A stretch of 5,459 nucleotides of DNA from the NCBI GenBank assembly GCA_001803565.1, contig MHDQ01000166.1:1-5459 (forward strand), in the 5' to 3' direction. The position numbers were made by a program, and so were the translations under genes. Positions 1 through 5,459 of the stretch are shown in pieces; positions within the stretch are counted from its first letter, which is position 1; each line of letters opens with the position of its first letter. The DNA is from Nitrospinae bacterium RIFCSPLOWO2_12_FULL_45_22 (GTDB taxonomy: Bacteria > 2-12-FULL-45-22). The notes beneath the pieces are model-generated. The model made no database searches, was not told the origin of the DNA, and saw nothing but the letters and a program-made list of their open reading frames with translations.

Positions 1-1746
1 TTTACAAAGGAACAAGGATTACAACGTGAAATATTTATCAGATACCTCTTTAGTGCCTTAACCGATAGTGACTGGCTTTCTACAGAAGAACATTTTGAAC
101 AAGATACATTTAAGATGCGCATCGGAGCTTCCTTACCGATAGACGTTATGATCAACAAATTAGAAGAGGAATTCTCTAAAAAATCCAAAGAAGGTGAAAT
201 CAATCAATTGCGCAATGATGCCCGCAATCAAGCGCTTCAGAAAGCGGATATGCCATGCGGGTTTTATTCGTTATCCTTGCCGACCGGGATGGGTAAAACA
301 CTCACATCTATGGCGTGGGCGTTACGACACGCAAAAAAGAATGATTTGAAACGGATAATAATTGTCCTCCCTTATATAAACATCATAGACCAGACCGCCC
401 AGGTTTTGAAAAATATTTTCGGTGAAGAATGGGTGCTTGAGCACCATTCCAGTTACAATGAGGACGCACTTGATAGTCGGGATGAGTCGGAGAATTGTTC
501 CCCTATTCAGGAACGAAAGAAATTGGCATGTGAAAATTGGGACTATCCTATTATAGTGACGACCACTGTTCAGTTTTTTGAATCGTTATTCAGTAACAGG
601 CCATCACAATGCAGGAAGGTTCATAATATAGCTGAATCTGTGGTGATATTTGATGAGGTTCAGACTACCCCCAAGGAAGTGATACTGCCTACGCTACGAA
701 TGTTAGAAGATGTTCAGACCGTTATGAAGACGTCTTTTTTGTTTTGCACGGCAACACAGCCTGCTTTTGAGAAGAGACTGGGGTTTGACGGCATAGAAAA
801 TATTCGTCCTTTAATTGATGATCCCTCTGAGCTTTACGAGAAAACAAAGCGTGTTGACTATCGCTTATTGAACGATTTAAAGCCGATTGATTACAGCGGA
901 CTGCTTGAGGCTGTAATACAGACAGGAGACTCAACGCTTGTCATATTCAACACGAAGAAAGCCGTATTGGAGTTTTATAATTGCACCAGCAAACTTGGAG
1001 ATTGGGAAAAGAAATATCATTTATCAACGGCAATGTGTCCATCGCATCGAAAAGGTGTAATCAAAAATATCAGGTATGATCTGGAAGCAAAGAAAAAAAT
1101 ATTGGTGGTTTCTACACAGCTTATTGAAGCAGGTGTTGATTTTGATTTTCCGGTTGTGTTCCGCGCTATGGCGCCGCTTGAGGCGGTTATTCAATCCGCA
1201 GGTCGTTGCAATCGTGAAGGCAATTTGGGTGCACTGGGTGGAAAAGTATTTCTATTTAAATTGCAGGACGGTGGTATGCCAGACAAGACTTATGCTGCCT
1301 GTGCAGGACATGCGGAGGATATGATTAAACGAGACATAGCTCAATTACACGGGCATACGATATTCAATGAATACTATGCTCAAGTAATACAGCTCTATAT
1401 TGACCCGGATAAATACAACATCAACGAAGCACGCAAGAGGTTTGATTTTGAAACTGTAAACGGAGCTTATCACATAATAGAGACTGCTACTGAGGGTTTA
1501 TATGTTTATAACTACAGCGATGAGAGCCGCCAGTTGTTACATTCGCTCGAATACAAAGAGTTTTTATCAAGGGATGATTACCGGAAAATGCAGTCGTATA
1601 CCGTACAGGTATACAAGCATTTTATTATTCAGAATAGTCAGATGTGCAAAACAATGGATCAGGGATTTATGGTATGGTACGGGAATTATGATCCTCAAAC
1701 GGGTATTTCAGTTGCGCCAATAGAGGCGGATAAATTGGTCGTATAA
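1..1746 (+). CDS. cas3: Cas3 helicase-nuclease, type I-C (5'-truncated by window edge)
   Basis: Cas3 is recruited to the target-bound Cascade R-loop, where it unwinds DNA 3'-5' using ATP and degrades it with its HD domain. The frame is open from base 1, giving 581 visible residues. Residues 13-29 contain SALTDSDWLSTE, resembling the end of the Cas3 HD domain (typically S-LVDADRLDTE), so most of the HD domain lies upstream. The SF2 helicase motifs follow in order: Walker A PTGMGKT (residues 94-100), VTTTVQFFES (186-195), Walker B DEVQ (218-221), motif III TAT (250-252), motif V STQLIEAGVD (371-380) and motif VI QSAGRCNR (398-405). A C-terminal accessory domain fills roughly residues 430-581. 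Complete I-C Cas3 proteins are usually 700-800 residues, so about 150-220 are missing here. The ATG at 115 lacks a Shine-Dalgarno and lies after the HD end, so it is not the start. No frameshift or missing helicase motif is seen. Confidence 0.96.
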   Translation, partial: FTKEQGLQREIFIRYLFSALTDSDWLSTEEHFEQDTFKMRIGASLPIDVMINKLEEEFSKKSKEGEINQLRNDARNQALQKADMPCGFYSLSLPTGMGKTLTSMAWALRHAKKNDLKRIIIVLPYINIIDQTAQVLKNIFGEEWVLEHHSSYNEDALDSRDESENCSPIQERKKLACENWDYPIIVTTTVQFFESLFSNRPSQCRKVHNIAESVVIFDEVQTTPKEVILPTLRMLEDVQTVMKTSFLFCTATQPAFEKRLGFDGIENIRPLIDDPSELYEKTKRVDYRLLNDLKPIDYSGLLEAVIQTGDSTLVIFNTKKAVLEFYNCTSKLGDWEKKYHLSTAMCPSHRKGVIKNIRYDLEAKKKILVVSTQLIEAGVDFDFPVVFRAMAPLEAVIQSAGRCNREGNLGALGGKVFLFKLQDGGMPDKTYAACAGHAEDMIKRDIAQLHGHTIFNEYYAQVIQLYIDPDKYNINEARKRFDFETVNGAYHIIETATEGLYVYNYSDESRQLLHSLEYKEFLSRDDYRKMQSYTVQVYKHFIIQNSQMCKTMDQGFMVWYGNYDPQTGISVAPIEADKLVV

Positions 1747-1759: not shown

Positions 1760-2491
1760 ATGCTCAATGATCGAATAGTAAGAGTTAAGGTAAAGTGCGA
1801 TTTCGCGTGTTTTACAAGGCCGGATCTGAAGGTTGAGCGCATGACGTATCCTTGCATGACGCCATCGGCGGCACGGGGCATTCTTGACTCGATTCTGTGG
1901 AAGCCGGAGTTTCAGTGGTATGTAAGGCGGATACTGATTCTAAACCCCATTCGCTTTTGTACGATTAAGCGTAATGAGATAAATTCAAAACAAGGCCGAA
2001 GTCCTATCATAATTGAAGAAAAGCGCGCTCAACGTAATAGCGTGGTTTTAAGGAATGTAGCTTATATCATTGAAGCGTCAATTTATATGAAACAATCCGA
2101 TAAAGCTAAACTGGAAAAGTATGTTGGAATGAATGTTAAGCATGAAGGAATGTTTCCCCGCCGCGTTAAAAAAGGGCAATGCTGGCGCAGGCCATATCTT
2201 GGCGTGCGGGAGTTTTCCGCTGAATTTATGGAGCCGGATGAAACTGACGAACCAATTAAAGAAACAATTCCCATCGGTAGCATGTTATTTGACATATTCT
2301 ATGACCAAAACGGAAAGCCGGAGCCGTTGTTCTTCCATGATGTCGCAATACGCAACGGTGTATTGAACTGCGAAGTTCCTGAAAATGACAAAATGATGCA
2401 GTCGAGCCATTTTCAGCCGGCAATTGACAGTGAAGTTTCTTCTGCAATCTATGAATTCAACCAGCAGGAAGAAAAGGAGGCGGCGCTATGA
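1760..2491 (+). CDS. cas5c: Cas5c (Cas5d), crRNA-processing subunit of type I-C Cascade
   Basis: In type I-C systems, which lack Cas6, Cas5c cuts pre-crRNA in the repeat and stays bound to the 5' handle. The 243-residue product has the usual length and family signatures: a N-terminal ferredoxin-like strand (VRVKVKCDFACFTRP, residues 7-21), YPCMTPSAARGILDSILWKP (30-49), RNE (71-73), KHEGMFPRRVKKGQC (127-141) and RPYLGVREF (144-152). K127-H128 align with the catalytic Lys-His pair described for Bacillus halodurans Cas5d (K116, H117). The position matching its Tyr46 is Leu46 here, a possible loss of one catalytic side chain (alignment by eye). ATG 1760 is preferred over GTG 1754 because the latter lies within the Shine-Dalgarno. 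The stop overlaps the cas8c start (ATGA), suggesting translational coupling. Confidence 0.96.
   Translation: MLNDRIVRVKVKCDFACFTRPDLKVERMTYPCMTPSAARGILDSILWKPEFQWYVRRILILNPIRFCTIKRNEINSKQGRSPIIIEEKRAQRNSVVLRNVAYIIEASIYMKQSDKAKLEKYVGMNVKHEGMFPRRVKKGQCWRRPYLGVREFSAEFMEPDETDEPIKETIPIGSMLFDIFYDQNGKPEPLFFHDVAIRNGVLNCEVPENDKMMQSSHFQPAIDSEVSSAIYEFNQQEEKEAAL
2474..2480 (+). promoter_or_regulatory. Shine-Dalgarno site of cas8c, inside the cas5c 3' end
   Basis: AAGGAGG lies seven bases before the cas8c ATG at 2488, within the last codons of cas5c. With the four-base ATGA overlap, it lets ribosomes finishing cas5c re-initiate on cas8c, which fits fixed-ratio production of Cascade subunits. Confidence 0.8.
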
Positions 2492-4341
2492 TTAAGGAAT
2501 TGAGCGACTTAGGGAAAACGCTTCGGGGTCAAAAAAACGAAAATGACTGGGTTCATGATGCGCTTAAAGAAGAAACTATTTCTTTAGTGCTTACAATTAA
2601 ACCTGATGGCAGTTTTGTTTCTTTACAGAGTATCGAAAAGAAAAAAACTATGGCTGAGGCTGTGCAAAGAACCAGTGGGAAAGAGGCGCGGTTGTTGATA
2701 GACAATTGTGGTTACGTATTGGGCGTTTATGATTGTGAGAGCAATGCCTTTAAAAAGAAAGCCAAGGAAAAGGGCGAACAGAAAGCTCATGATATTTTCA
2801 AAAAAGATGTATCTGAAAAATTGGCTTTATTTTTAGAGCGATTGAATGAAACTGCTGAGTTGGAAGAACTGATACCTGTATTGAAGTTTTATAAAGATAG
2901 CAAACAAAAAGGCATTGATATTGTTAATCAAGAGTATTTCTTAAAAAATATTTCCAAAAAGGATCGGGGCGGGAATATAGCCTTATTAGTGTCAGGCAAA
3001 TATAAATATGTCCATGAATACGACTCGGTTTATCGCGGAATAATTGATGCTTATGAGCGCAAACAGCAGGAGATCACATCAAGTGTTAGAAAAAAATGCG
3101 CTATTTGTGCAGGAGAACAATTCCCAGTCGGCGATTTTACTCATTTCCCAATTAAAGGAGTCCCGGGAGATAAAGAGCCCGCCGGGGGGCGTAAATTGAT
3201 TTCTTATAACGGTGACAACAATCCGTTTGAATCTTATGGAATGGTCGGTAATGAAAATAGCATGATTTGCACAAATTGCGCTAAAACTTATGTAGAGGGG
3301 CTGAATTGGCTCCTCTCATCGGGGACAAAGATAAAAAACAAAAAGAATAAAGACGACATAGTCTATACAAATCGTTGGCCTCGTAAAAGGTCAGCAAGTT
3401 TTGGCGTGGATACTGCAATGGTCTTTTGGACTCGTGAGAACGAAAAAGTGGATGAAATAGACTACCTGGAAGCGCCTAACCCTGCCGATATCGCAAGGCT
3501 GATTGAATCTGTGGCATCTGGTACCGAAAGGGATAGCCGCCATATTGAATCTGACCAGTTTTATTCGTGCGCGCTTTCCGGTTCTGCGGCCCGTATAGCG
3601 GTACGGGATTGGATTGAGACCAGTTTACTTGATTTTAAAAAATCAATCGCTAAATGGTTTCGGGATATTGCCATTGACGAATATGATGGAGATTTAAAGA
3701 AGACCCAAACACGTTATTCCCGACTCTATGACCTGGCGAGAAGCTGTCAGAGAAAAAACAGCGATAATAGCTATGACAAAGATGATACATCATGGGTGAG
3801 AGTTGCTACGTATCTATGGAATGCAGCACTGAAAAATGTCTCGCCACCATTATGGATGTTAACAAAAGTGCTCCAACGGGCGCGTTTGGATAAATATGGC
3901 GTTACCGCAGATAGAGCAGCCTTGATTAAACTGATTTTAAACCGACATAAGAAAGGAGGTGATTTTGTGATTACAGAGAAGATTGAACAGGGGAATAGGC
4001 CGGTGGCCTATGTTTGTGGGCAGATTTTTGCAAAACTGGAGAGCATCCAGTATGCCGCATTAGGGGACATAAATGCTGGAATACGGGAGAGGTATTTTAC
4101 CTACGCGATGACCTCGCCTGCTGCCGCGTTCGGGCGGTTGTTCGATTTGGGTTCAAAGCATTATAAAAAAATCAAAAATGAAAAACCCGGGCTTGCTATT
4201 ACTCTGGACAAGGGGCTTCAGGACTTGGTGAAAGATATAGATATTAATAAATTGCCTGCGACTTTTTCTTTAGAAGAAAAAGGACAGTTTGCTATCGGAT
4301 ATTACCACCAAAGACAGTCGCAATTTAGCGGCAGTAAATAA
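2488..4341 (+). CDS. cas8c: Cas8c (Csd1), large subunit of type I-C Cascade
   Basis: Cas8c is the large subunit that recognises the PAM, starts target unwinding and docks Cas3. The 617-residue length fits the Csd1 family. Matching blocks, in order, are: IDNCGYVLGV (residues 71-80), HFPIKGVPG (219-227), a FESYG block (247-251) leading to YVEGLNWLL (268-276), FYSCALSGSAARIAVRDWIE (358-377), and a C-terminal part with RPVAYVCGQIFAKLE (504-518), INAGIRERYF (528-537) and GQFAIGYYHQRQ (599-610). Two CxxC pairs (C204/C207 and C261/C264) flank the HFPIKGVPG to FESYG segment and could bind zinc, which is inference. Two short runs at 88-106 and 281-289 are lysine-rich. The C-terminal 124 residues probably also serve as free Cas11c, made from an internal start. 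No frameshift is seen, and the 21-base gap to cas7c has no terminator. Confidence 0.95.
   Translation: MIKELSDLGKTLRGQKNENDWVHDALKEETISLVLTIKPDGSFVSLQSIEKKKTMAEAVQRTSGKEARLLIDNCGYVLGVYDCESNAFKKKAKEKGEQKAHDIFKKDVSEKLALFLERLNETAELEELIPVLKFYKDSKQKGIDIVNQEYFLKNISKKDRGGNIALLVSGKYKYVHEYDSVYRGIIDAYERKQQEITSSVRKKCAICAGEQFPVGDFTHFPIKGVPGDKEPAGGRKLISYNGDNNPFESYGMVGNENSMICTNCAKTYVEGLNWLLSSGTKIKNKKNKDDIVYTNRWPRKRSASFGVDTAMVFWTRENEKVDEIDYLEAPNPADIARLIESVASGTERDSRHIESDQFYSCALSGSAARIAVRDWIETSLLDFKKSIAKWFRDIAIDEYDGDLKKTQTRYSRLYDLARSCQRKNSDNSYDKDDTSWVRVATYLWNAALKNVSPPLWMLTKVLQRARLDKYGVTADRAALIKLILNRHKKGGDFVITEKIEQGNRPVAYVCGQIFAKLESIQYAALGDINAGIRERYFTYAMTSPAAAFGRLFDLGSKHYKKIKNEKPGLAITLDKGLQDLVKDIDINKLPATFSLEEKGQFAIGYYHQRQSQFSGSK
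3950..3963 (+). promoter_or_regulatory. Internal Shine-Dalgarno site within cas8c, driving cas11c
   Basis: AGAAAGGAGGTGAT is a 14-base uninterrupted match to the complement of a Bacillus-type 16S rRNA 3' tail, stronger than the site of any other gene in the window. It encodes KKGGD inside Cas8c and sits seven bases (counted from GGAGG) before a GTG that is in frame with cas8c. A site this complete in the middle of a coding region, at the position where other I-C systems start Cas11c, is best read as a real internal ribosome binding site. Confidence 0.88.
3967..4341 (+). CDS. cas11c: Cas11c small subunit, internal translation product of cas8c
   Basis: The predicted product is the small subunit that forms the inner filament of I-C Cascade and stabilises the R-loop's displaced strand. 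It starts at GTG 3967 (Val494 of Cas8c, read as Met when initiating), shares the cas8c frame and stop, and has 124 residues, close to the roughly 120-residue Cas11c known from other I-C systems, where an internal start in cas8c is established. The boundary is sensible: it begins just before the conserved helical block RPVAYVCGQIFAKLE and ends with GYYHQRQ. The near-perfect upstream Shine-Dalgarno is the main evidence. That this strain makes the protein is inference from sequence. Confidence 0.87.
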   Translation: MITEKIEQGNRPVAYVCGQIFAKLESIQYAALGDINAGIRERYFTYAMTSPAAAFGRLFDLGSKHYKKIKNEKPGLAITLDKGLQDLVKDIDINKLPATFSLEEKGQFAIGYYHQRQSQFSGSK

Positions 4342-4347
4342 AACCTA

Positions 4348-4356
4348 AAGAGGAGG
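4348..4356 (+). promoter_or_regulatory. Shine-Dalgarno site of cas7c
   Basis: AAGAGGAGG lies in the 21-base gap after the cas8c/cas11c stop, six bases before the ATG at 4363. The gap has no inverted repeat or T-run, so cas7c is expected to be read from the same transcript. A strong independent site fits Cas7 being the most abundant Cascade subunit. Confidence 0.8.
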
Positions 4357-4362
4357 CATAAA

Positions 4363-5232
4363 ATGAGTGATGTAATCAAGAATCGGTATGATTTTGTATT
4401 TCTGTTTGATGTAAAAGACGGCAATCCTAATGGCGACCCAGATCAGGTAAATTTACCCAGAGCCGATGCCGAAGATCAGCATGGTTTGGTTACCGATGTG
4501 TGTATTAAAAGGAAGGTCAGGAATTATGTCATGCTAGAAAAGGAGCTTAAGTCGCCCTTCGACATATTCATCAGACAAGAGCAGGTTTTGAATAAGATTA
4601 TTGATGCTGCTTCTGGTGAGAATATACAGCAGCGTCAAGAGGGGTTATGTAATAATTACTTTGATATTAGGACATTCGGAGCTGTGTTATCGACAGGGGA
4701 TAAAGGCGCTGGAACTGTTCGAGGTCCGGTGCAGTTTACCTTTGCCCGTTCAGAAGATCGCATATATCAGGCGGAACACTCTATAACACGTTGTGCTGTA
4801 ACTACAGAAGAAGATGCTAAAAAACAGGAAAGCAGGGAATACGCTTCAACATTTGGACGGAAATCTACTGTACCATATGCTCTTTACAGAATGCATGGTT
4901 TTATCTCGGCTATTGATGCTAGAAAAACAAAATTCTCTGAAGTGGATCTCACGTTATTATGGAAATCATTAATCAATGCCTTTGAAAATGATCGGGCTGC
5001 CGCACGAGGAGAAATGAACCCAAGAAAGCTGGTCATTTTCAAACATTCAAGTCATTTGGGGAATGAACTGTCAGGCAGATTGTTTGAGCGTGTGAAAGTG
5101 ACAAAGAACTCGGAACTGCCGAGAGGGAAAAATGATTATACGATTTCTGTTGATAGGCAGAATCTCCCATCTGATGATAAGAAGAAGGCATTAATTGAAA
5201 TTAAAGAGTGGCCGGAAGAAACTATATTCTGA
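4363..5232 (+). CDS. cas7c: Cas7c (Csd2), backbone subunit of type I-C Cascade
   Basis: Cas7c is the RRM-fold protein that polymerises along the crRNA spacer (about seven copies in studied I-C complexes) and kinks the guide-target hybrid. The 289-residue product has normal length. Its N-terminal signature is clear: FVFLFDVKDGNPNGDPD (residues 11-27), NLPR (30-33) and GLVTDVCIKRKVRNY (41-55). Further conserved blocks are DIRTFGAVLS (101-110), GTVRGPVQFTFARS (117-130), HSITRCAVTTEED (139-151), the FGRKSTVPYALYRMHGFISA segment (164-183) and LLWKSLINAFENDRAAARGEMNPRKL (in 198-223). No catalytic role is expected. The start is fixed by a strong Shine-Dalgarno. The next gene starts 12 bases after the stop, in the same reading frame, separated by TGA and four sense codons. 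Confidence 0.97.
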   Translation: MSDVIKNRYDFVFLFDVKDGNPNGDPDQVNLPRADAEDQHGLVTDVCIKRKVRNYVMLEKELKSPFDIFIRQEQVLNKIIDAASGENIQQRQEGLCNNYFDIRTFGAVLSTGDKGAGTVRGPVQFTFARSEDRIYQAEHSITRCAVTTEEDAKKQESREYASTFGRKSTVPYALYRMHGFISAIDARKTKFSEVDLTLLWKSLINAFENDRAAARGEMNPRKLVIFKHSSHLGNELSGRLFERVKVTKNSELPRGKNDYTISVDRQNLPSDDKKKALIEIKEWPEETIF

Positions 5233-5244
5233 GGTAATCACCAC

Positions 5245-5459
5245 ATGACCGACCCAAAAGAATTCCCGCAGCTCATCCCGCCGCACGGCGGGTATCGGGA
5301 ACTACAGTCTTACCGAATGTCGGAGATTGTTTTTGACGCTACGATAGTATTTTGCAACCGGTTCATTGATCGCCGCTCCCGCACCCATGACCAGATGGTG
5401 CAGGCGGCACGCAGCGGCAAACAGAACATCGCCGAAGGTAGCATGGCCTCAGGCACGTC
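5245..5459 (+). CDS. Four-helix-bundle 'suffix domain' protein (3'-truncated by window edge)
   Basis: The 71 visible residues start MTDPKEFPQLIPPHGGYREL and contain SYRMSEIVFDATIVFCNRFI, RRSRTHDQMVQAARSGKQNI (residues 43-62) and AEGSMASGT. LIPPHGGYR, THDQMVQAARSG and NIAEGSxASGTS are the pattern I associate with the 'four helix bundle suffix domain' family, related to the S23/IVS and Avd-type four-helix-bundle proteins. Avd helps reverse transcriptase in diversity-generating retroelements, but the function of this branch is unknown, so none is assigned. The start is ATG 5245, with a weaker Shine-Dalgarno GAGGT at 5231-5235 overlapping the cas7c stop. GC is about 57% by hand count, well above the cas genes, suggesting different ancestry. 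It sits where type I-C loci normally have cas4. No reverse transcriptase or template repeat is visible. Confidence 0.85.
   Translation, partial: MTDPKEFPQLIPPHGGYRELQSYRMSEIVFDATIVFCNRFIDRRSRTHDQMVQAARSGKQNIAEGSMASGT

Follow-up and report, generated by a model that had tools for sequence, protein, structure and literature searches.

A probable nested cas11c gene with an internal Shine-Dalgarno sequence inside cas8c of a type I-C CRISPR-Cas operon

In CRISPR-Cas types I-B, I-C and I-D, Cas11 is translated internally according to McBride et al. 2020, as described in PMC7684278 and PMC11899642; for type I-C this includes independent translation of Cas11c from inside cas8c (McBride 2020, as cited in PMC7684278). 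The preliminary description of the DNA analysed here had treated nested Cas11c as an established phenomenon in type I-C, which the published work, as represented in PMC7684278 and PMC11899642, bears out. In D. vulgaris the small subunit corresponds to Cas8c 489-612, has a mass of 14 kDa and is present in two copies per complex (PMC7684278). At the D. vulgaris DP4 locus, GGAGGTGCCC is followed by a GTG from which exactly 124 codons remain, and the aligned point of the D. vulgaris locus reads CTGGAGGTGCCC-GTG. Cas11d and Cas11b, of types I-D and I-B, are likewise described as translated independently inside a large-subunit gene (McBride 2020 as cited in PMC11899642), but they belong to other large-subunit families (Cas10d and Cas8b), and in our tests the genes were non-homologous to the one considered here.

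The window, meaning the whole stretch of DNA that was analysed, is a complete contig of 5459 bases (G000:C166) from a genome bin of 321 contigs that is 85% complete. It carries cas3, cas5c, cas8c and cas7c in that order on a single strand, the arrangement of a type I-C operon, while the cas4-cas1-cas2 side of the operon lies past the contig end (Table 1). We propose, with a probability of about 0.95, that this cas8c contains a nested cas11c gene translated from an internal Shine-Dalgarno (SD) sequence and GTG 3967. The window case is a clear new instance of an arrangement that the literature has already described for type I-C. It shares with the D. vulgaris type I-C system (PDB 7KHA, 8DEJ) the gene, the place within the gene, the length of 124 aa, the GTG start, the preceding SD and the predicted fold. 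In contrast to D. vulgaris, the pairing is much longer in the window, the motif is read as GGA-GGT (KGG) rather than CTG-GAG-GTG (LEV), the two Cas11c proteins are about a third identical, and the window product is a predicted one, where that of D. vulgaris is experimentally verified. In the type I-C Cascade of PDB 8G9S, the Cas11 chain also has 124 aa and shows homology to almost all of the product (E 5e-17), but in the alignment its start falls some four residues downstream of the window's.

Table 1. Coordinates of the operon genes and of the proposed nested gene in the window.
Feature	Position	Strand	Remark	Basis
cas3, type I-C helicase	1..1746	+	5' end beyond contig	PADLOC Cas3c 6e-159
cas5c	1760..2491	+		NCBIfam TIGR01876 3e-40
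cas8c (csd1), large subunit, 617 aa	2488..4341	+	host of the proposed nested start	Pfam PF09709 1.7e-96; NCBIfam TIGR01863 above cut-off; PADLOC Cas8c 1.2e-86
Putative internal Shine-Dalgarno AGAAAGGAGGTGAT	3950..3963	+	core GGAGG 3955-3959	16S-tail complement and homologue conservation
Putative Cas11c GTG start codon	3967..3969	+	cas8c codon 494	start kept in homologues; D. vulgaris parallel
Putative cas11c, small subunit, 124 aa	3967..4341	+	nested in frame	PDB Cas11c chain matches and predicted four-helix fold
cas7c (csd2)	4363..5232	+		NCBIfam TIGR02589 2.4e-89

Both elements that internal initiation would require, a ribosome-binding site and a start codon, are present in the sequence. The string AGAAAGGAGGTGAT is unique in the window, matching with 0 mismatches where the next best site has 3, and it is the exact 14-base complement of the end of the 16S gene of the same bin (GGATCACCTCCTTTCTAAGG; locus L003, the only 16S found there). 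The pairing partner is the 3' end of the gene, which may differ from that of the mature rRNA, and this 16S could be mis-binned. The 14-base anti-SD match of the preliminary description is thereby confirmed, as is its in-frame GTG: the frame running from codon 494 of 617 to position 4341 yields a product of 124 residues. The spacing of seven bases that it gave before the GTG holds when counted from the core GGAGG, whereas the whole 14-base match ends 3 bases before the GTG. Past GTG 3967, the next in-frame ATG comes only deep within the domain. In a different frame, a TTG at 3965 overlaps and competes with the GTG (TTGTG within 3964-3970) but runs straight into TGA. We found no support for a separate cas11c transcript from an internal promoter, the region 3500-4400 having two weak matches where 2.1 would be expected.

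The identity of the putative product as Cas11c, as the preliminary description had proposed, is supported by homology, by the predicted fold, by D. vulgaris as a positive control and by 90 homologues. The 124 residues match Pfam Csd1 positions 445-558 as well as the Cas11c chains in the PDB (8g9s_H 5e-17, 7kha_K 3e-16), with starts agreeing within three or four residues. The length falls within the range of about 110-145 aa expected for a product of the Cas8c C-terminal domain, and equals both the homologue median (124) and the D. vulgaris value (124). AlphaFold2, using an alignment of only five sequences, predicted four helices with a pLDDT of 84 and uncertainty at residues 1-5; this predicted fold is a helical bundle of the kind expected for Cas11c. 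Foldseek searches with the predicted structure recovered two groups from type I-C Cascades, Cas11c and the C-terminal domain of Cas8c (TM 0.76-0.84, E down to 5e-6). VIA-align gave Z scores of 15-18 to both groups, and of 16-18 to the Cas11c chains, compared with 4.5 for the first unrelated chain. No profile library or gene table that we used names Cas11c, not even for the D. vulgaris locus, whose Cas11c is established. A candidate for a stand-alone cas11c (L042) was rejected as a hemerythrin-like false match.

To measure conservation we used 90 distinct Cas8c sequences from a genome search, aligned on a conserved Gly of the domain; these are wider relatives, the phylum-level set around the window's genome comprising only two genomes. 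For each homologue the start was taken as the best-paired one within a 17-codon stretch, and the identical rule was applied to controls. All 90 homologues possessed an in-frame start at the matching point (ATG in 67, GTG in 23), and in 85 of the 90, which are mutually related rather than independent and may include errors in some MAG sequences, GGAG stood 5-12 bases before it. The corresponding control rate was 2.2% (63/2852 other 17-codon stretches of these genes). Clustering at 50% identity left 36 clusters, 32 of which had GGAG. The mean pairing energy was -11.5 kcal/mol compared with -6.5 for synonymous resamplings, none of which (0/500) reached it. Conservation of the SD beyond codon need, the check that the preliminary description had called for, is thus borne out. 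The window site was the second strongest among the 90. In addition to the 85, L004 (67% identity to the window) carries AAAGGGGGTGAT at the Cas11c point, in which one A-U pair is changed to G-U. The second, distant type I-C operon of the same bin (L002, G000:C112), which has cas4 and cas1 nearby, reads AAAGGAGGTAATCACGGT-ATG at the Cas11c point of its cas8c. L035 has no SD-like sequence there, and 16/90 homologues have another in-frame ATG or GTG in the gene with an equal or stronger upstream match.

Chance occurrence of an SD in a Lys/Gly-rich stretch was considered, since AAA-GGA codons readily yield SD-like strings. Under the gene's own codon usage the codon string for K-K-G-G-D has P of about 0.0055, and 0.4% of synonymous resamplings pair as strongly as the window site. 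Chance is scarcely credible given an exact match of 14 bases, compared with a longest match to the 16S tail of 10 bases in 100 first-order Markov simulations of the window, and given that 85 of 90 homologues retain the motif while 2.2% of control stretches contain it. Homologue conservation, synonymous resampling and controls together already disfavour it.

Some homologous loci were irregular. L040, considered as a split cas8c, was rejected as a Cas8c cut short. In L008 Cas8c ends early after GQFR and the cas7c start is missing (about 4713-4926), reflecting a deletion or an assembly join. In G952 (C157/C159) and G660 (C34/C161) the match to Cas8c is divided over two contigs, with the break close to the Cas11c start and probably due to assembly ends.

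The codon register of the motif bears on a further alternative, namely that a Cas11c-like fragment, if made, arises by proteolysis of Cas8c, the SD-like string being a by-product of a conserved Lys-Gly-Gly linker. The C-terminal domain is indeed a single unit that could be cut off, the KGG motif is common to the closest relatives, and an earlier interpretation of some type I-B Cas8b proteins invoked fragmentation (PMC11899642). However, the motif is conserved at the level of nucleotides and encodes KGG, KEV or RR/RS depending on the homologue. GGAG falls in codon registers 0, 1 and 2 in 15, 3 and 67 genes, respectively: 15 genes, the window's and those of its closest relatives among them, read GGA-GG (KGG), 67 read G-GAG-G (mostly KEV) and 3 read GG-AG across the third register. 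Mapping these labels onto a quick Cas8c tree required at least 7-8 changes. Residues thus vary where nucleotides are retained, a pattern for which a constraint on the linker as protein cannot account. Proteolysis is likewise at odds with pairing above synonymous expectation and with a start codon at functional distance in every homologue, and we regard it as very unlikely. We lean towards the view that the internal SD, rather than the encoded peptide, is the selected element at the Cas8c linker, with the same string re-read in three registers and the RNA signal setting the linker peptide (KGG, KEV or RR). We found no statement of this view in the literature examined, in which McBride 2020 figures only through citing papers, and the register shifts may represent a small addition to the published work.

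In two Bacteroidota genes, from Parabacteroides and Phocaeicola, the ATG is retained but the SD motif is absent, with ACAATAAAAAACTCGATATT in front. Because Bacteroidota are generally reported to be without SD sequences (PMC3155529), these genes serve as a natural control and look as expected. They also bear on the possibility that the internal SD is a translational pause, helping Cas8c to fold before its C-terminal domain is made, rather than a start. Intragenic SD-like strings have been proposed to slow ribosomes, and the site lies just ahead of the domain boundary. A pause, however, needs no start codon, yet the in-frame ATG or GTG 5-12 bases downstream is kept, and retention of the ATG without an SD is the pattern of a start. 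We therefore consider a pause in place of a start extremely doubtful, although the two roles could coexist.

The preliminary description had further held that the internal site surpasses the sites of cas5c, cas8c and cas7c in strength, and that this strength sets Cas11c output above Cas8c, as for a multi-copy subunit. The former is correct as pairing energy in the window (-17.6 kcal/mol for cas11c compared with -13.6, -12.6 and -11.9 for cas5c, cas8c and cas7c, respectively), and, of the operon's four start regions, the internal one has the least structure. The latter was unsupported. Among 87 homologues the cas11c site exceeded the cas8c site in strength in 37 and fell below it in 48 (slightly weaker overall), in a test that somewhat favours cas8c by taking its start as the best-paired one near the ORF beginning. 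The weakest sites among homologues were those of cas7c, whose product has seven copies per complex in D. vulgaris, and the window start is a GTG. A GTG start is as a rule weaker than an ATG one. The window's long pairing, which runs towards the start codon, resembles the extended SD that helps to choose GUG in S. aureus (PMC13009471). A link between SD strength and copy number does not hold up generally. Pairing over 14 bases does not necessarily raise initiation in proportion, and other factors, such as start codon, structure, coupling and message decay, must set the Cas11c:Cas8c ratio.

Directly after cas7c the window contains the start of a four-helix-bundle gene (5245-5459; weak TIGR02436/PF05635 match). 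An evidently homologous, full-length gene lies between cas7c and cas4 in the relative L004 (3861-4424), and the Smithellaceae relative L008 has a different gene there (5694-6740), Fic-domain-like by eye. This slot may take up accessory genes. We found no RNA families in the window and no near relatives among viral contigs and plasmids.

In the mechanism that we propose, ribosomes reading the full cas8c frame would produce the large subunit, while other 30S subunits would bind the cas mRNA within cas8c via the internal SD and start at the GTG. The product would be a helical bundle of about 14 kDa, identical to the Cas8c C-terminal domain apart from its initiator Met. On the D. vulgaris model, Cascade would incorporate two copies, which would line the path of the non-target strand in R-loop formation. 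We infer actual initiation in the host, as well as the copy number and role of Cas11c. Register shifts of the kind described above offer an easy way to tell from sequence whether nested starts in other gene families are real. For this operon, the nested gene would add a second protein product of cas8c to what the gene table annotates. Type I-C Cascade reportedly fails to form when Cas11c is absent (Tan 2022, as cited in PMC11899642), so cloning of the system must keep or supply Cas11c.
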